A stretch of 45,505 nt of DNA. Source: Clostridia bacterium. GTDB lineage: Bacteria; Bacillota; Clostridia; Christensenellales; Aristaeellaceae. The DNA lies in the NCBI GenBank assembly GCA_017523615.1, contig JAFWWK010000134.1, positions 1-45,505 on the forward strand. Direction: 5' to 3'. The number at the start of each line of letters is the position of its first letter. Position 1 is the stretch's first letter. Below the pieces are notes generated by a model that saw nothing but the letters and a program-made list of their open reading frames with translations, had not been told where the DNA came from and made no database searches. The translations under genes were made by a program, and so were the position numbers. Shown here piece by piece: positions 6,763 to 25,175 of the stretch.

Positions 6763-7521
6763 ATGAATATATGGGTAAAAAGCAATTTTTCTGTTTCCCA
6801 TACGGACGGAAGCACAGTACGCGGAATCCATTTCAAATATCAATCGGAGGGAAAACGCCCCGCAGTGATCGTTTGTCATGGATTTAACGGATGCTATTCG
6901 GGGATGCTTGATCGCGGAGAAGCCTTCAGCGCAGCGGGGATCGACTGCTGGCTGTTCGATTTCCGCGGCGGTGGTGAACATACGACCAGCGACGGAAAAT
7001 TATCTGAAATGATGACCACGGAAACAGAATGCGCAGACCTGAAACTGGTTATAAATTACGTCCTCTCACAGCCAGAAACCGACGAGCGCCGGCTGTTCCT
7101 CCAGGGAGAAAGCCAGGGGGGACTCATCTGTACCCTTGTAACCGAGGAAATACCTGCTGTGATCCGCGGTCTGTTCCTCTGGTATCCTGCCCTTTTGATT
7201 CCCGAAGCATCCCGGGAACGCCTGCAAAAAGGCTTGAGGGAGGTATTCGGGATCCGGCTGTCCCCGGATTTTGACCGGATCGCGGCGGAGCTCGATCCAT
7301 GGACAAAAATGAAGGATTATCATGGAACCGTGCTCCTGATCCATGGCGACAGCGATCCTGTAGTGCCTTTGGAATGTTCAAAAAAGGCCATGTCCCTCTT
7401 ACCGAACGCCAGGCTGAAGGTCATTCCCGGCGCCGGGCATGGATTTGGCGGAATTGACCTGCAAAATGCAATACTATGGTCTGTTTCAGTAGCAATTGAT
7501 ATAGACAGTGGTCTATTTTAA
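6763..7521 (+). CDS. Alpha/beta-hydrolase (esterase-like)
   Basis: A 252-residue single-domain cytoplasmic alpha/beta hydrolase. The oxyanion strand is VIVCHGFNG. The nucleophile elbow is GESQGG with Ser117. The acid is in HGDSDPVVP and the catalytic His in GAGHGFGG. It resembles S9/BAAT-like and feruloyl-esterase-like hydrolases of Clostridia; the substrate is unknown. The neighbouring glucanase suggests removal of ester groups from plant glycans, but this is only inferred from context. The start at 6763 is preferred over upstream starts because GAGGGA lies 10 bases before it. The tail after the catalytic His is short. Structured repeat copy A follows 36 bp after the stop. Confidence 0.75.
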   Translation: MNIWVKSNFSVSHTDGSTVRGIHFKYQSEGKRPAVIVCHGFNGCYSGMLDRGEAFSAAGIDCWLFDFRGGGEHTTSDGKLSEMMTTETECADLKLVINYVLSQPETDERRLFLQGESQGGLICTLVTEEIPAVIRGLFLWYPALLIPEASRERLQKGLREVFGIRLSPDFDRIAAELDPWTKMKDYHGTVLLIHGDSDPVVPLECSKKAMSLLPNARLKVIPGAGHGFGGIDLQNAILWSVSVAIDIDSGLF

Positions 7522-7557
7522 CCATAGTTTGTTCCTCTTTTCCCGTTCCGCCTTTTC

Positions 7558-7708
7558 ATATTGATCTCATTTTAAACAGCTAATGCTGTTATAAATAGCG
7601 TCGAAGGCGCGTATGAGATCGCAATGGGACGTCATGCAGCGCATTGCGCTGCATGGAGCGTGCAAAGCACGCGGCATCTCAATTTGGCTAAAACAATTTG
7701 ATTAGTAT
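7558..7708. repeat. Structured dispersed repeat, copy A (151 bp)
   Basis: Closely related to 23031-23180. Hairpins: AACAGC/GCTGTT (7575-7590), GCGTC/GGCGC with GAA loop (7598-7610), ATGCAGCGC/GCGCTGCAT (7634-7654, perfect) and GCGTGC/GCACGC (7658-7672). GATCTCAT (7563-7570) pairs perfectly with ATGAGATC (7613-7620), enclosing the first two hairpins. The same middle segment can instead pair with ATCTCA at 7676-7681, enclosing the last two. The ends are near-inverted (ATATT...AGTAT). It has no open frame, so it resembles a REP/MITE-like non-autonomous element or a structured RNA. It lies between convergent genes. Confidence 0.8.
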
Positions 7709-7790
7709 CAATCCCGTAAAACCCGCCATTCATCTTTGATCCGCAGGACTTCCCTATATTCTGCAAAAGCTTATCACAGCCTGGATCCGG

Positions 7791-7849: not shown

Positions 7850-8224
7850 TCAGATCTCAGCCTGCCAGAGTCCATGCAGGTTGCAAAAAGCAAGGGCGGA
7901 AACCGCTTCATCGCCTTCGGTCAGGGCAAATACGGCTTTCGGGGCATCGCCGGGCTTCAGGGCTTTGCGCTGACGGCCTTCCTTTGTCTCAAGAACGATC
8001 CATTCGATAAAATGTTCCTGGGTCATCGGATGCGCAGCCGAGCCAACTTCCACAGTCACCTTAAGGCCTTCGGCTTTGATCACCGGCACATGCTTTTCCT
8101 TTGCTCCGTCGCTGGTACCGGGGACCATTTCTTTCATCGGTTCGCCGCAGCATTTGGTGGGACAGGCGCTGGATCTGATGATCGCGGCGATCTTGCCGCA
8201 GCCTTCGCAATAATAAAATTTCAT
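7850..8224 (-). CDS. Desulfoferrodoxin-type superoxide reductase
   Basis: A 124-residue two-iron superoxide reductase, reducing superoxide to peroxide in the cytoplasm using rubredoxin-like donors. The N-terminal desulforedoxin domain has Cys6, Cys9, Cys25 and Cys26 for the FeCys4 centre I. The C-terminal domain has the centre II ligands His45, His65, His71, Cys114 and His117 (CNLHGLW). Length and ligand spacing match the family. This points to a strict anaerobe with oxidative defence. The ATG at 8224 follows AAAGGAG by 8 bases. It has its own promoter overlapping the end of the upstream GH112 gene, and its own terminator, so it need not be co-expressed with the sugar operon. Confidence 0.93.
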   Translation of the reverse strand: MKFYYCEGCGKIAAIIRSSACPTKCCGEPMKEMVPGTSDGAKEKHVPVIKAEGLKVTVEVGSAAHPMTQEHFIEWIVLETKEGRQRKALKPGDAPKAVFALTEGDEAVSALAFCNLHGLWQAEI

Positions 8225-8305
8225 TTTCTCGTCTCCTTTCATTCCGCGCCCATCAGGCGCAGGTTTTCCCGATCGGCAGATCCGTTGGCACGGACTGGAA
8301 CCGGT

Positions 8306-8335
8306 ATTATAACCCAGCCTCTGAAGACAAATCAA
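8306..8335 (-). promoter_or_regulatory. Promoter of the superoxide reductase gene, overlapping the GH112 stop
   Basis: On the minus strand TTGATT (8335-8330), an 18-bp spacer, and TATAAT (8311-8306). The -10 contains the TAA stop of the GH112 gene. Confidence 0.65.
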
Positions 8336-10460
8336 GCGTTTTCATTCCGCTTCCTTCAAGCGCGACGGCATACGTTTTTCCTCCGAAAGCCACGTGCGCG
8401 GTAAGGGGATCGGGAGAGGAATTGACCACCGCAAGGATGTTTTCACCGGGATAATAAGCGCATTCCGTCCGCGGATCGTCCGTCTGGGGGAGATTCAGCG
8501 TCCTGCCGTTTGTGATGAGCCTGTCCAGCAGGGCGGTATTTGCAGGGCTATAGGAATAGCCAGCCAGATAAACGCCCATGCCCTTGCCGAATGGATGGCA
8601 GGTGATCACAGGTCTGCCATCCTCCTGCCACAGGATCTGCACTTCGGGATCGACGATCCTCACCGGAACGGTTTTGCCGAGGCCCTTTTCATCCGGACGG
8701 ATACCGGGTATTTCGGTCAACGGCACGTCGAAAGAGCCGTGACAGGAATAAGCCGCGTCGTCCCTGTCGACACCCAGCACATTGGCCAGGCGGAAGGATC
8801 GGAACCCATCCGGTGCGCAGGAGGGCTCGGCAATACCTATCACTGTCCCGCCCCGGAGCGCAAAGGCACTGACACTTTCAAGGATCTTTCCATCGCGCCA
8901 TGCATCTCCTCCGGACCACGCGGTGCCTTCCCATCCGCAGTTGATCAGAACGTCGATACCTTCCGGCACTCCTTCCCTGATGTCCTCAAACGAGAGGAAA
9001 CGGACATCATGGGGGAGACCGGACAAACTCTCGATGATATGGATCAGGGGATGCATATAGGTTTCGTGGAAATGACCGGATAATGTCCAGGAGCGAAGGC
9101 TGCCCCACGAGGTCACGATGCCGATCCCAATGCCGGAGCCCATGGGCTTCCCGGTATCGTGCAGCGCGGATATCTGCCGGAATTCGCAGAGGATCCGGTC
9201 CATAGCTTCGGTAAAATCGGGGTAGTCCGGCACCAGATGCAAATAACCTCCCAGGCCTGTGCGGTCGATCTTCTGCCGAAGCATCGCGCGGCGAACACGT
9301 ACCCAGTATTCCAGGGCGTCCCTGCCGGGTTTGCCGCCGGGGGAGAAGGTGGGAGCGCCGCCCAGGCCCACCGGGAACAGGTACGGATGAAAGCGGATCT
9401 CATGGGTCCTGGCCGGAACTCCGGCGCAAAGGCGCACCTCAAAGCCGGAAAAGACACATTTGATGATGCCGTCAAAGCCCATTTCCTCAAAATGTCCGTT
9501 CCATGGCTCCAGGCCGACCCAGCTGTCGTCATAGAATACATAGGCTTCCTTGCCGTATGCGTGGGTCATGTCGGTGAGGCTCCGCCCCAGTTTCCTGACG
9601 AAACGGCCCACAAAAGCCATCCAGTCTTTTTTGTGTTCCGTCGGAGGGACATGGGTGGCGTTGTATTTCCCCTTCCGGACAAAGTCCTCGGCAGTCAGGG
9701 CATAACCGTATTCCTTTTCAAAGTCTTTCAGGGCGGCGGGGCTGACGGTAAAATCATAGCTGGCCCAGTCAGTAAAAAGGTTGCGGTTCATCTCTGACGA
9801 ACCCCAGATCCACGTAAAATTGTAAAACAGTGAAGTGAACCGGACCACGTTGGTATCCGGATGCGCTTCCAGCCATTTTTTCATCCAGTCCATCAGGTAT
9901 TCCCGGGCCTGGAGGAGATAGGGGTCAAGCACCATCAGATGCTCCTTATCCCAATGGTTGGTCACATGATTGTACATCGAGATCTCTTCCCAGATACGCC
10001 AGGCAAGGAAGGAGACCGTATATTCTCGGAAGGGCACGGAAGGGAAAGCGACTTTCCCATCGGCATAAGACACCTTGTCCCTGTCCACCCTGATGTTCGC
10101 CGTGCGGTCCCACACTTCAAGGTACGCGAGAGCTTCCGGACTTTCGTTCACCTGAAACTGCTCTGAAAAGAAGCCGTCCATCAGGCCGATCTGTGTCCGA
10201 TCGGAAGAAGCTGTCACGGGAGGAGTGGAAAGAAACGACTGCTGCCTGCATTCCGGATGCTCTCGAAGGAAAGGATTGTGTTCCCGGATGGGGCAGAGAG
10301 TGGAATAGATCCTGTATCCCGAAGAAACGATCTCCGGGCTCAGCCTGGTGCCGTCGCTGTCACGGATCACATCGGCGTCCCAGCGCTTGGCCAGGTCCAG
10401 GGTCAGCTGCTCACATCCGCTCTCACCGGGAAGGGTAAAATGTCCTGTGCAAATCTTCAT
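8307..10460 (-). CDS. GH112 beta-galactoside phosphorylase (galacto-N-biose or galactosyl-rhamnose type)
   Basis: A 717-residue cytoplasmic inverting phosphorylase of family GH112, releasing alpha-galactose 1-phosphate from a beta-galactosyl disaccharide. The length and the EAYVFYDDSWVGLEPW segment (Asp311/Asp312, where the family's catalytic acid lies) are diagnostic. The TIM-barrel is followed by a Rossmann-like trimerisation domain (DVLINCGWEGTAWSGG) and a C-terminal beta domain. GH112 enzymes act on Gal-beta-1,3-HexNAc or Gal-beta-1,4-L-rhamnose. The GH105 gene directly upstream (3-bp gap) favours the rhamnose type, because galactose on O-4 of rhamnose is the side-chain linkage of rhamnogalacturonan-I. 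That choice is inference. It is the last sugar gene of the lpl operon. Confidence 0.88.
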   Translation of the reverse strand: MKICTGHFTLPGESGCEQLTLDLAKRWDADVIRDSDGTRLSPEIVSSGYRIYSTLCPIREHNPFLREHPECRQQSFLSTPPVTASSDRTQIGLMDGFFSEQFQVNESPEALAYLEVWDRTANIRVDRDKVSYADGKVAFPSVPFREYTVSFLAWRIWEEISMYNHVTNHWDKEHLMVLDPYLLQAREYLMDWMKKWLEAHPDTNVVRFTSLFYNFTWIWGSSEMNRNLFTDWASYDFTVSPAALKDFEKEYGYALTAEDFVRKGKYNATHVPPTEHKKDWMAFVGRFVRKLGRSLTDMTHAYGKEAYVFYDDSWVGLEPWNGHFEEMGFDGIIKCVFSGFEVRLCAGVPARTHEIRFHPYLFPVGLGGAPTFSPGGKPGRDALEYWVRVRRAMLRQKIDRTGLGGYLHLVPDYPDFTEAMDRILCEFRQISALHDTGKPMGSGIGIGIVTSWGSLRSWTLSGHFHETYMHPLIHIIESLSGLPHDVRFLSFEDIREGVPEGIDVLINCGWEGTAWSGGDAWRDGKILESVSAFALRGGTVIGIAEPSCAPDGFRSFRLANVLGVDRDDAAYSCHGSFDVPLTEIPGIRPDEKGLGKTVPVRIVDPEVQILWQEDGRPVITCHPFGKGMGVYLAGYSYSPANTALLDRLITNGRTLNLPQTDDPRTECAYYPGENILAVVNSSPDPLTAHVAFGGKTYAVALEGSGMKTLDLSSEAGL

Positions 10461-21263: not shown

Positions 21264-22382
21264 ATGAAGCCTTTGATCCTTGCCATAACAATATTGTATA
21301 TTATTACGCTTACACCTTTGGCGGGAACGGAAGCCGTGTTCTGTATCGATGATTCCGCCTTTGAAAGCTGTTCCTTTGAAAGCGTGGTCCTGCCGCAGGG
21401 TACCCTTTCCCTTGGGATCCGCGCCTTTGCGGACAACGCGCACCTTGAAAAGATCGTGATCCCCTCCACGGTCTCCTCAATCGATCCTTCGGCTTTCGAC
21501 GGATGCCCGCGAGACCTTCTGATCGTTACCGAAGGCGGATATCCACTTTCCTGGGCCATCGGCAATACCTTTGACTACAGCAACGGCGGCCACGCCCGCG
21601 TCCTTGTAACGGTGGAAACTTACGAAGGAGACAACAGCCGCCAGACCCTGTCCGGCACAGCCACCGACGGCGCAGGGTATGTAAACATGTTTGCGGGATT
21701 CACGAGAACCGCCGGAGATGTCACGCTGGTCGAAAATCCCGGACGGGAAGAACTGCTTTCCCTGATCCCCTCGACTTTCGCAGGCGCCGGGGACTGCGAT
21801 ATCTCCGTTTTCGTTTTTCTCGGCCACGGCCTTCGGGACACCGACAGCGGCACCAGCCTGCTTGCCGCGTATTGTGATACGGAAGGGATCACTGCTTCGC
21901 AGCTTCAGGCCGCTTTCTCCGGCGTCGGCGGCAGGAAGGTGATCATCATCGACGCGTGCTACAGCGGCGGCCTCATCACCGACGAGACCGAACCTCAAAG
22001 CGAAGAGGAAACCTTGAAAGCGGCGGAGGAATTCACCCGGGATTTCACTGCCCCGTTTATGTTCCGGAGCCGTTCCGCCCTGACGGCCGGCGGATATTAT
22101 ATCATTACCGCCTGTAGTGCAGACCAGCAATCCTACGAGACCGTCTTTACCTGCGGCGGCGTTTCCACCGACGCCGGTTTTTTCAGCTATTATTTCAACC
22201 TGGGCTGTGGATGGAACGAGGTTTCACACACCGCGGACAGCCTGCGTGCCGATCGGGACCATAACGGCATCGTCACCCTGGATGAGATCGCCGTATATAC
22301 CTCGGGCCGCCTCCCTTCCCTGCAGACCGTGACCGTATATCCCGCCGGAGCGGACTGGTTCGGACTCTTCCGGAACGACTGA
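21264..22382 (+). CDS. Exported LRR/caspase-like cysteine peptidase with EF-hand loop
   Basis: A 372-residue protein. The signal peptide covers about residues 1-24. Residues 28-85 carry BspA-type LRR_5 motifs (CSFESVVLPQGTLSLGIRAFADNAHLEKIVIPSTV pattern). Residues 112-320 form a caspase-fold (peptidase C14/metacaspase-like) domain with the dyad His188 (FVFLGHG) and Cys232 (IIIDACYSGG). A perfect 12-residue EF-hand loop with Asp330, Asp332, Asn334, Gly335 and Glu341 follows, suggesting calcium dependence as in metacaspases. Relatives occur in surface-exposed proteins of gut Clostridia, with unknown targets. The ATG at 21264 follows CGGGAG by about 5 bases. The fusion of LRR, caspase domain and EF-hand is unusual enough to flag. 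Confidence 0.8.
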   Translation: MKPLILAITILYIITLTPLAGTEAVFCIDDSAFESCSFESVVLPQGTLSLGIRAFADNAHLEKIVIPSTVSSIDPSAFDGCPRDLLIVTEGGYPLSWAIGNTFDYSNGGHARVLVTVETYEGDNSRQTLSGTATDGAGYVNMFAGFTRTAGDVTLVENPGREELLSLIPSTFAGAGDCDISVFVFLGHGLRDTDSGTSLLAAYCDTEGITASQLQAAFSGVGGRKVIIIDACYSGGLITDETEPQSEEETLKAAEEFTRDFTAPFMFRSRSALTAGGYYIITACSADQQSYETVFTCGGVSTDAGFFSYYFNLGCGWNEVSHTADSLRADRDHNGIVTLDEIAVYTSGRLPSLQTVTVYPAGADWFGLFRND

Positions 22383-22458: not shown

Positions 22459-22845
22459 TCAGGCATCCAGTTCTTCGAGACGCCTGAGCCAGGCAAGTAT
22501 CGACCCGTCGCTGAACAGCGTCATCAAAAAGCCTTCGGAAAACCTTTCAGCGCGAATGGCGGCAAAAATCATCGCAAGGATACATCTGGCATCGCAGACG
22601 GAAGTATCAGCCCGGTCAAGGGTGTCGGTAGACAGACCATATTCCGCCAGGATATCACGGTAATAATCCAGGCGCATTTCGGGATGGGAATTCAGCCAAT
22701 GATAGAATACGTCCACAAACCGATCGACGATGTGGGCGCCGATCTGATCCTTGTTCCAGCCTTCCAGCGTATTGCCGTCCTTTTTTTCAGCTATTTTTTC
22801 CGCCGCGGGAATAAAATCCGTCAGCGAGTGAAATTGAAGACCCAT
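22459..22845 (-). CDS. DUF6508-like protein of unknown function
   Basis: A 128-residue soluble protein, mostly helical. The second half CDARCILAMIFAAIRAERFSEGFL followed by DGSILAWLRRLEEL matches what I recall of the DUF6508 family; no function is known for it. No signal peptide or membrane segment is seen. The ATG at 22845 is preferred because AAAGGA lies 10 bases upstream. The open frame extends to 22926, but a promoter (-35 TTGCAA, -10 TATTAT) overlaps that part, so the longest start is ruled out; ATG 22878 remains possible. Confidence 0.7.
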   Translation of the reverse strand: MGLQFHSLTDFIPAAEKIAEKKDGNTLEGWNKDQIGAHIVDRFVDVFYHWLNSHPEMRLDYYRDILAEYGLSTDTLDRADTSVCDARCILAMIFAAIRAERFSEGFLMTLFSDGSILAWLRRLEELDA

Positions 22846-22897
22846 GGGCTTCTTATCCTTTCCTATGCGAAACGGCATGCAGTTTTTTCTTTTAACA

Positions 22898-22926
22898 ATA
22901 ATATCATTTTTGTATTCATTTTGCAA
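22898..22926 (-). promoter_or_regulatory. Promoter of the DUF6508-like gene
   Basis: On the minus strand TTGCAA (22926-22921), a 17-bp spacer and TATTAT (22903-22898). Confidence 0.65.
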
Positions 22927-23003: not shown

Positions 23004-23030
23004 CAGAAAGCGCATAAGAACGGATCGATC

Positions 23031-23180
23031 ATACTTGATCTCATTTTAAAACAGCCAATGCTGTTTTAATAGCGCCGAAGGCGCGTATGAGATCGCATGA
23101 GACGGAATGACGCGCTTTGCGCGGCATTAGCGTGCGAAGCACGCGGCATCTCAAATTGGCTAAACCAATTTGATGAGTAT
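23031..23180. repeat. Structured dispersed repeat, copy B (150 bp)
   Basis: Second copy of the element at 7558-7708, in the same orientation. It keeps AAACAGC/GCTGTTT, GCGCC/GGCGC with GAA loop, AATGaCGCGC/GCGCGgCATT (23106-23128, one mismatch), GCGTGC/GCACGC (23130-23144) and AAATTGG/CCAATTT near the 3' end. GATCTCAT near the 5' end and ATGAGATC in the middle pair perfectly; the later ATCTCA can compete. Ends are ATACT...AGTAT. It starts 6 bp after the GH120 stop, so it is transcribed (as the complement) in the 3' untranslated region of that operon. Confidence 0.8.
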
Positions 23181-23186
23181 CAGACG

Positions 23187-25175
23187 TCAAGACCACAACG
23201 GAAGGGTGGGATCGCCGTCAGCAAAGGGACCCGGCATGATCCTCAGTCCCCTGTGGCTTCCGAAATAATCGCTGTCGAACACGATGCCGGTACCGTCGCT
23301 GTTTTCAAAGCGCTCTTCAGGCTCAAAAGCCTTGCCGAGCACGTCCGAGGTAATGAGTCCGGCGCGGTATGCGCCGACCAGAGTGCAGACATTCGTATCC
23401 AGGAATGGCTTCCCGTCCTTTTCGGTCAGCTCCACACGGACCTCGGAACTGTCATCCCTGAGGAAGTCCTTTTCCTTTTCCCAGGGCTTTGCCCCTCCAA
23501 GGTAAACATTGCCCGCACACCAGACAGGCAGCTTGCTTTCATGCGCAGGCGCAAGGCCGCGCATATTGGGGGTGTCGTTGTCCATGTCAAACATGGCGAT
23601 CCATTCCTCCCAGGTGGGATAGCCGTCCATCACATGAGTGCCGCACTCGCGGTTTTCACTGAACGACTGGGAAGAATCGCTGTCCGAAAGGACAGTGACG
23701 TCTCCTGCGGGCCATTTCTGCACAAAGATGTTGTTATAGAAACGGTCGTCCCCGTGCAGGAAGGTCATAAAGCCCATGACTTCGGTATTATGGGGCATAT
23801 GGTAGGGAGTGTAACGGGGGCCGGTCCCGCCGCCCACCGCGGTAAAGGAACCGCAGATCAGGTTGTGCACCATGGCGACGCCCTGGCTGGAAAGCCGGAC
23901 CGATGCCTCGGAGAGCAGGATATTGTTGTCGATCAGGGTCGGCCCATGGGATACCTCCACAAAGATATCCTGGCTCATCATGCCGCCTTTCAGTATCTCG
24001 GCAAAGGGCGGGCGCTGGTTGTCGTGCAGGAGGTTCTGGGAGATCCTGGTCCCCTGAGCCTCCCAGTCGCACCAGATGCCCATGGTGCAGTGGTGGATGT
24101 GGTTGCGCCGCATCACCACGTCGATGGCCGCGTGCATCTTTATGCCGGAGATCTCGGCGCCGCCCAGCTCCATCATATTGTTGATGTGATGGATATGGTT
24201 GTCTTCGATCAGGGAAAAAACGCCGCCCATCCTTCCGATGATCCCGCCCTGCTCGCAGTGGTGTATATTGTTGCGGCGGATGATGTGGCTGCCGATACGG
24301 GAACGGGTCCAGCCGTGGAACTGGCCCCTGCAGACCGCGTCCCGTTCCATCTGAGTGGGACTCTTCACATGTTTGAAGGTAAAGTAATGATCGTTGTCGG
24401 GATCCAGATATTTGCCCAGAGAGATCCCGGCGCACTTGCTGCCATAGATCTCGCAGTCCTCGATGATCCATCCCCTGGACCAGTGGGGGCCGATCATGCC
24501 GTCCTGGAAGGCCGCGGGAGGCGCCCATGTGGTTGCCGCCTTGCAGATGACAAACCCGGAAACGGTGATGCAGTTCCGCCCCGTCTTCGAAGGGAAGAAG
24601 CATTCGCGGCGGACGTTGATCTCGACGTTTTCACAGTTGGGGTCCGCCCCCTGGAAATTGGCGTAGATCACGGTATGATCCCCGTCCTGCTCGGAGTACC
24701 ATTTATACACGGACTCCTCCGGCACCCAGGAGCATGGATACACCTGGCCTTTTTCGCATTCTTCCAGCGACGCGGCTTCATAAAGCATACGGTCATTGAG
24801 GTATACGCATCCCGTATGCTTCGTGCGGCCGGCAAAATACCAGTCCCCGTATACATAGGTGGTGTAGGGATTGTAGGAACCGAAAACCGAATTCGGTATT
24901 CTGACCCTCCAAAGGGAGCCGCGCAGGTTTTCCCAGTCCCTGACGGGTTCGGCGCCCGTGATCACCGCCCCAAGGGGCTTTTCACTGCGGTAGACGATCC
25001 GTTTATCGTCTTCCCCGCCGTTCACCGGATCCACGTATTCGCGGTACACGCCCGGTGCCACGATGACCTCGTCCCCGGGCATTGCCACCTTTGCCGCGTC
25101 ATTGATGCGCCGGTATGGCCTTTCTCTGGTACCGCAGCCGTCGCGGCCCGCAGCGGAATTGACATAAATGATCAT
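23187..25175 (-). CDS. GH120 beta-xylosidase (right-handed beta-helix)
   Basis: A 662-residue intracellular enzyme with no signal peptide, releasing xylose from xylo-oligosaccharides. The sequence closely follows the GH120 pattern known from Thermoanaerobacterium XylC: IYANFQGADPN, ENVEINVRR, HWSRGWIIEDCEIYG, KMHAAIDV. The likely nucleophile is Asp370 in CDWEAQGTRIS and the acid/base Glu407 in FVEVSHGP. Between them lies about 14 residues more than I recall in XylC (segment rich in PPFAEILKGGMM). Repeated NxIHH segments mark beta-helix turns. GGAGGAG lies about 8 bases before the ATG. It is the last gene of an operon with metF and amylosucrase. Confidence 0.88.
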   Translation of the reverse strand: MIIYVNSAAGRDGCGTRERPYRRINDAAKVAMPGDEVIVAPGVYREYVDPVNGGEDDKRIVYRSEKPLGAVITGAEPVRDWENLRGSLWRVRIPNSVFGSYNPYTTYVYGDWYFAGRTKHTGCVYLNDRMLYEAASLEECEKGQVYPCSWVPEESVYKWYSEQDGDHTVIYANFQGADPNCENVEINVRRECFFPSKTGRNCITVSGFVICKAATTWAPPAAFQDGMIGPHWSRGWIIEDCEIYGSKCAGISLGKYLDPDNDHYFTFKHVKSPTQMERDAVCRGQFHGWTRSRIGSHIIRRNNIHHCEQGGIIGRMGGVFSLIEDNHIHHINNMMELGGAEISGIKMHAAIDVVMRRNHIHHCTMGIWCDWEAQGTRISQNLLHDNQRPPFAEILKGGMMSQDIFVEVSHGPTLIDNNILLSEASVRLSSQGVAMVHNLICGSFTAVGGGTGPRYTPYHMPHNTEVMGFMTFLHGDDRFYNNIFVQKWPAGDVTVLSDSDSSQSFSENRECGTHVMDGYPTWEEWIAMFDMDNDTPNMRGLAPAHESKLPVWCAGNVYLGGAKPWEKEKDFLRDDSSEVRVELTEKDGKPFLDTNVCTLVGAYRAGLITSDVLGKAFEPEERFENSDGTGIVFDSDYFGSHRGLRIMPGPFADGDPTLPLWS

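Follow-up and report, generated by a model that had tools for sequence, protein, structure and literature searches.

Two copies of a folded repeat in the window

The window, the whole stretch of 45,505 nucleotides analysed here, contains two copies of a repeat, with refined ends at 7559-7707 and 23032-23179, which display 87% identity over ~155 bases (blast, E 5.7e-45). An earlier note on this DNA had described two copies with the same order of hairpins, and both are present with the hairpins that it named. Copy 1 is flanked by convergent genes, encoding an alpha/beta hydrolase (stop at 7521) and a desulfoferrodoxin (7850-8335, minus strand), and copy 2 is located between the stop of a GH120-type gene (23187-25175, minus strand) and the start of a DUF6508 gene (22459-22926, minus strand). 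Elsewhere the window encodes a lacto-N-biose phosphorylase-type enzyme (8307-10460, minus strand; PF09508, PF17385, PF17386) and a protein comprising a BspA-type leucine-rich repeat and a caspase-like C14 domain (21264-22382, plus strand). The only match to Rfam in the window at gathering score is a tRNA.

The complete element is ~120-160 bp long and is organised, from left to right, as TNA, TAC-N, P1 5' arm, H1, TA, H2, GT, P1 3' arm, linker GCATGAGACG, H3, H4, H5, GTA, TNA. Helix P1 encloses hairpins H1 and H2; the arms of H1 are A-rich and T-rich, while H2 reads GCGC..GCGC. The features of the two copies are as follows.

7556-7558, no strand: left target-duplication arm of copy 1, TCA, direct repeat with 7708-7710
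7559-7707, plus: element copy 1, subfamily A1, TAT...GTA (covariance model R1 match 7559-7707, 129.4 bits)
7563-7570, plus: copy 1 P1 5' arm, GATCTCAT, pairing with 7613-7620 in the fold and covarying across families
7575-7590, plus: copy 1 hairpin H1 (fold)
7598-7610, plus: copy 1 hairpin H2, GCGTC GAA GGCGC (fold)
7613-7620, plus: copy 1 P1 3' arm, ATGAGATC (fold)
7621-7631, plus: copy 1 linker, GCAATGGGACG, family consensus GCATGAGACG (column identities in alignment A5)
7633-7655, plus: copy 1 hairpin H3 (fold)
7658-7672, plus: copy 1 hairpin H4 (fold)
7675-7703, plus: copy 1 terminal hairpin H5, worn, 3' arm short by two bases (alignment)
7708-7710, no strand: right target-duplication arm of copy 1, TCA (direct repeat)
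23029-23031, no strand: left target-duplication arm of copy 2, TCA, direct repeat with 23180-23182
23032-23179, plus: element copy 2, A2-type third hairpin, TAC...GTA (R1 match 23033-23179, 164.3 bits; start set at TAC)
23037-23044, plus: copy 2 P1 5' arm, GATCTCAT (fold)
23046-23069, plus: copy 2 hairpin H1 (fold)
23072-23084, plus: copy 2 hairpin H2, GCGCC GAA GGCGC (fold)
23087-23094, plus: copy 2 P1 3' arm, ATGAGATC (fold)
23095-23104, plus: copy 2 linker, GCATGAGACG, conserved across genera
23106-23126, plus: copy 2 hairpin H3, single internal mismatch (fold)
23128-23142, plus: copy 2 hairpin H4 (fold)
23145-23174, plus: copy 2 terminal hairpin H5, 3' arm short by two bases (alignment and fold)
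23180-23182, no strand: right target-duplication arm of copy 2, TCA (direct repeat)

The terminal inverted repeats are short and degenerate, comprising TACT...AGTA and ~6 loosely alike inner bases, and would offer little to a usual transposase. No conserved reading frame was noticed in the elements. Within the genus, subfamilies are distinguished by entire stems: the H1 core is CAGC/GCTG, ATGA/TCAT or AGGC/GCCT, P1 is GATCTCAT/ATGAGATC or GATCCTG/CAGGATC, and H3 is absent from some copies.

Insertion sites, placement and spread

Seventy-two loci were examined for target duplications, and the 54 non-redundant copies with T.A beside both their TAC-like and GTA-like ends were kept (18 dropped); the list pools several genera and contains one likely orthologous insertion pair (L016, L043). 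The 3-bp TNA flanks are identical in 48 of these 54 copies, against a mean of 27.8 and a maximum of 40 when flanks were shuffled (20,000 trials). Without the T.A filter, identical flanks occur in 24 of 37 full-length copies compiled earlier. The duplicated triplets are TCA (35), TTA (11) and TGA (2), revealing an oriented target (TYA 46, TRA 2). Of the 48, 30 have G as the adjoining base on the H5 side, and the site on that side is mostly TCA-G or TTA-C. Flanks are unequal in the remaining 6 of 54, which include the otherwise perfect L048 (TTA/TGA). Four copies at different places, of which genome G004 contains three and G005 one, share every one of their 148 bases, suggesting recent movement; their flanks are equal in two, TTA/TGA in one and cut by a contig end in one. 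No base-exact empty site was found, the relatives of a phage-like carrier described below being too diverged between the genes, and two pairs of insertions that share an intergenic region in two species could not be resolved as empty sites. L028 (G000 contig 105) and L041 (G004 contig 69) adjoin one conserved gene in two species but point in opposite directions, through either separate insertions or an inversion.

Copies are mostly intergenic. Their placement was analysed with genes called by our own codon-usage method in loci of up to ~3 kb, rather than by a standard gene finder, and 59 copies were tabulated after one orthologue was dropped, 7 of them with a neighbour called on one side only. 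The H5 side faces a gene 3' end 46 times and a 5' end 10 times, and the P1 side 34 and 21 times, respectively (P 0.02). The 3' ends lie within 28 bases, small overlaps counted, in 24 of 46 cases on the H5 side but in only 1 of 34 on the P1 side (P 1e-6), and in 13 copies the duplication is itself a stop codon, invariably on the H5 side. A model of placement that incorporates the target preference seen here, applied to the 51 usable copies, predicts 10.8 stop-codon sites (11 observed) and 17.6 copies with a 3' end within 28 bases (20 observed), although this agreement is partly built in because the target weights were drawn from the same copies. Stop-codon targeting as a separate mechanism was rejected on this basis: insertions at stop codons follow from the oriented TYA target combined with intergenic placement, and apparent stop-codon targeting can thus arise from these two factors. 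Between co-directional neighbours, 15 of 20 copies have the upstream gene on their H5 side (P 0.04), a weak bias that is expected from an oriented target, and orientation was therefore dropped as a sign of RNA function.

A blast search with copy 2 found 37 places in the window's own genome (G000), a 3.3 Mb draft in 280 contigs. The covariance search of this genome and its relatives that the earlier note had proposed was performed with R1, built from 31 copies that match by construction, and gave 37 matches in G000, 17 in G001, 9 in G005 and 5 in G004, with zero in G002 and G003, the remaining two of the six genomes of the genus. The search reached other genera and another family too. Searches spanning >40 genomes were run under stricter filters. 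Over 150 genomes of the family, R1 matched in six, comprising four of the genus, G014 (8 matches) and G124 (1 match, at a contig end), the latter two representing two other genera. Over 396 genomes of the order, R2 at E 0.01 also matched in six: the window's own, G325, which belongs to another family, G221 and G239, where matches are degenerate, and G232 and G408, whose matches appeared chance-like by eye and were rejected. G325 has 7 R2 matches, only 7 candidates being scored, and 46 places found by end pattern, which is not a copy number since the pattern matches both ends. Over 391 genomes of the class, R3 matched in two, the window's own and G682 (E 5e-4), the latter doubtful on reading. 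An exact core pattern searched in named genomes returned 6 stretches, five from RUG13460 and one from RGIG6770 (sheep rumen), a result that may omit records close to the window.

The copies in G014, G124 and G325 identified with covariance models display the same layout, in stems whose letters are largely different. Repeats of the small hairpin kind are usually reported genome by genome, whereas here one plan is traced across genera and families of one order; no description of such an element was found in the open-access literature, as judged by titles and abstract starts. Viral contigs searched with three patterns gave 0, 1 and 1 match, in one and the same contig, an IMG/VR phage-like contig that holds a copy between capsid-like and scaffold-like genes (roles judged by eye). 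The element is absent from that place in the 6 aligned relatives, of 52 relatives. The genus copy L041 gave no match to plasmid and phage records by distant blastn. The TNA duplications, the dispersed copies and the copy in a phage-like contig agree with a mobile element family, as the earlier note had suggested.

Fold, covariation and decay

Predicted RNA folds of both strands of both window copies are more stable than shuffles (z -4.2, -4.1, -5.3 and -6.5), as are DNA folds of their plus strands (z -5.7 and -8.7). Across both strands of three copies, RNA folds are likewise below shuffles (z -4.1 to -7.5), and the DNA fold of L041 presents z-scores of -9.5 and -8.5 for its two strands. The third hairpin pairs in both window copies, as had been noticed, with one internal mismatch in copy 2 (A opposite G). 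The change from GCGTC to GCGCC in H2 corresponds to a G-T pair in copy 1, which is a minority state (UG in 2 of 31 aligned sequences). The middle segment ATGAGATC pairs perfectly with the 5' GATCTCAT, forming P1, and is also able to pair with the 3' ATCTCA. In full copies, ATCTCA is the 5' arm of terminal hairpin H5 (CATCTCAAATTGG / CCAATTTGAGATG), and its own partner is hidden in the window copies because both lack two bases of the H5 3' arm. The proposal of two mutually exclusive helices did not survive: the alternative helix presents 0 both-side changes and no measure above shuffles, while P1 and H5 covary. Although it is formable in many copies, with 82.8% of cells paired against 2-53% in slid controls, the competing helix was rejected as a selected alternative fold.

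Covariation was measured in two alignments. In A1 (31 sequences, MAFFT), both-side changes occur at 17 of 51 pairs (12.8 when shuffled, with 6 of 500 shuffles attaining 17), 74 cells carry such changes (shuffled 28.3) and 88.8% of cells pair (slid partners 28.6-48.2%), while further pair types are no higher than in shuffles (46 and 44). In A5, which comprises 22 sequences from several genera and was aligned by model in a manner that favours structure, both-side change affects 45 of 51 pairs (shuffled 33.5) and 294 cells (shuffled 87), with a covariation of 0.639 against 0.179 for shuffles; the ten linker columns display identities of 0.59-0.95. The structure, which to the earlier note looked selected, is maintained across families by this measure.

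Decay was scored against the best subfamily consensus in 62 of 63 distinct genus copies, one below the score cut being dropped. The 2787 scored pairs comprise 2521 intact, 244 one-sided, 10 compensated and 12 uncompensated double changes, with ~13 double changes expected if the two sides were independent and 284 pairs lost to gaps; some of the 10 compensated changes may derive from undefined source variants (L118, L119). Stem positions differ from the subfamily consensus at 5.2% and unpaired positions at 9.3%, which may reflect loop variants absent from the consensus or a degree of selection on single copies. The mostly uncompensated decay of single copies, taken with covariation across families, suggests that the source elements are where pairing is maintained. 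No signature of one RNA strand was seen, since G-T and A-C mismatches are about equal in the 62 copies (62 and 60, a test diluted by decayed copies), in A1 (43 and 54 with H1, 37 and 40 without) and across families (28 and 30 in 1065 cells); the tolerance of G-U above A-C that characterises a structured RNA is thus not displayed.

A putative MITE-like element and its mobilisation

These properties are best explained by a non-autonomous, MITE-like DNA transposon inserting in oriented TYA sites, whose fold is maintained in the source elements, a reading that we consider probable. Each copy occupies an oriented TYA site, the three bases of which are duplicated around it, as the flanking sequences show. 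An enzyme acting in trans would join the TAC...GTA ends to the target, presumably through a 3-bp stagger, and the fixed length of the duplication makes a DDE-type transposase the simplest guess. Each end lies within a hairpin beside the joint, P1 on the left and H5 on the right, and the layout P1(H1,H2)-linker-H3-H4-H5 would be preserved in those source elements from which new copies arise. A folded single strand or cruciform probably takes part in recognition or mobilisation, after which inserted copies would drift, as those observed do, mostly between genes.

The copies are short and dispersed, with target duplications and terminal inverted repeats, as expected of MITEs. Bacterial MITEs (Correia/NEMIS, ERIC, RUP, RPE, CIR, YPAL) have been reviewed (PMC2229807), and they share with the element a size of ~100-200 bp, the lack of an encoded protein, a mostly intergenic location, strong base-pairing, terminal inverted repeats with TA near the ends and target duplications. 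The element is unlike known MITEs in its five hairpins and conserved linker, in a layout that extends over genera and families while stems are rewritten, and in its oriented TYA target.

A more specific version of this reading, which we hold only tentatively, is that the enzyme recognises shape, binding a folded single strand (the P1 three-way junction, linker GCATGAGACG and H3-H5) and inserting it at oriented TYA, such that pairing and layout would be selected and stem letters replaceable. With this element it can be tested whether a mobile element must preserve its folding rather than its terminal sequence. With similarly limited probability, the repeat may instead be an ordinary MITE whose stems stay perfect through template-switch correction of imperfect palindromes, with the fold unselected. 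Pairs do change in blocks, subfamilies differing by whole stems, and the two strands fold alike with equal G-T and A-C mismatches, as a DNA process would give. However, resident copies display little correction (244 one-sided against 10 compensated changes), and the helix order and unpaired linker kept across genera and families are unexplained by correction alone.

The partner transposase was sought with end patterns and four families, PF01609, PF13586, PF01797 and PF00665, and no transposase with the element's ends was found in the loci fetched from these draft genomes. PF01609 genes, present in 3 of 6 genus genomes without the element's ends, are absent from G004, which has identical copies. 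PF13586 is present in 0 of 8 genomes or records, and rve (PF00665) in 4 of 9 genomes. PF13586 and PF01609 served as the test for an IS5-type transposase in carrier genomes; the IS1031 subgroup of the IS5 family has a TNA target and shares the 3-bp TNA duplication with the element, but its ends start differently.

The distribution of PF01797 (Y1_Tnp) provides a lead: among nine draft genomes it is present in 6 of 7 carriers and in 0 of 2 non-carriers of the genus. It would fit a REPIN-like palindromic repeat moved by a RAYT, an IS200-like tyrosine transposase, which we regard as improbable. One RAYT-like Y1 gene (PF01797; G000 contig 135, 10617-10940, L261:1462-2199) is located ~2.4 kb from an element copy, and the L261 locus as fetched holds no copy. 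IS200/IS605-type enzymes make no target duplication, in contrast with the 3-bp duplications of the element. Moreover, R3 found no element in any of ten Y1 loci, searched together with flanks of up to 1.5 kb, no Y1 gene bordered by copies was found, and G014 has copies but no Y1 match (82% complete draft). The REP/BIME/REPIN repeats are likewise palindromic, intergenic and present in many copies, and known REPs form hairpins that carry a short unpaired tag, either GTAG or CGTC (PMC3733652); in reverse, the element's linker reads CGTCTCATGC. At 20-40 bp, REPs are 4-7 times shorter than the 120-160 bp element.

Mobilisation via an RNA copy, or guidance by the element's own RNA in a SINE-like or bridge-RNA-like manner, is very unlikely. 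The conserved unpaired linker, the stems covarying across the order and the 46:2 target orientation do recall RNA-programmed elements, and the IS110 bridge-RNA elements share a structured non-coding segment and an oriented target. In the element, however, the RNA-strand signature and an internal recombinase are lacking, and the middle base of TNA varies between copies and is duplicated within each copy, fitting staggered cutting better. Lastly, a host-used structured RNA or 3'-UTR regulator dispersed by chance, which the strong covariation across families and the gene 3' ends close to the H5 side might favour, is highly improbable given the uncompensated decay of single copies without G-T excess, a 3'-end pattern matched by target preference and intergenic placement (20 against 17.6, with weights from the same copies), the copies missing from two of six genus genomes and the lack of an Rfam match at threshold.

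Two variants of the element were also observed. Palindromes of 55 bases, near-perfect, at L079:119-179 (G003 contig 34) and L183 (G325 contig 154) correspond to the left end of the element alone; when four loci were compared with Rfam under an E limit of 1, 4 matches were obtained, all sub-threshold, and two were to miRNA models on the L079 palindrome. In G325, a second recurring module (ACTACGCTCCGCTTCGTTGAAACGCCCTTCGAAG...) is located within the H1-H2 region of copies L162, L181, L184, L187 and L191, as if elements enlarge by taking in further hairpins.
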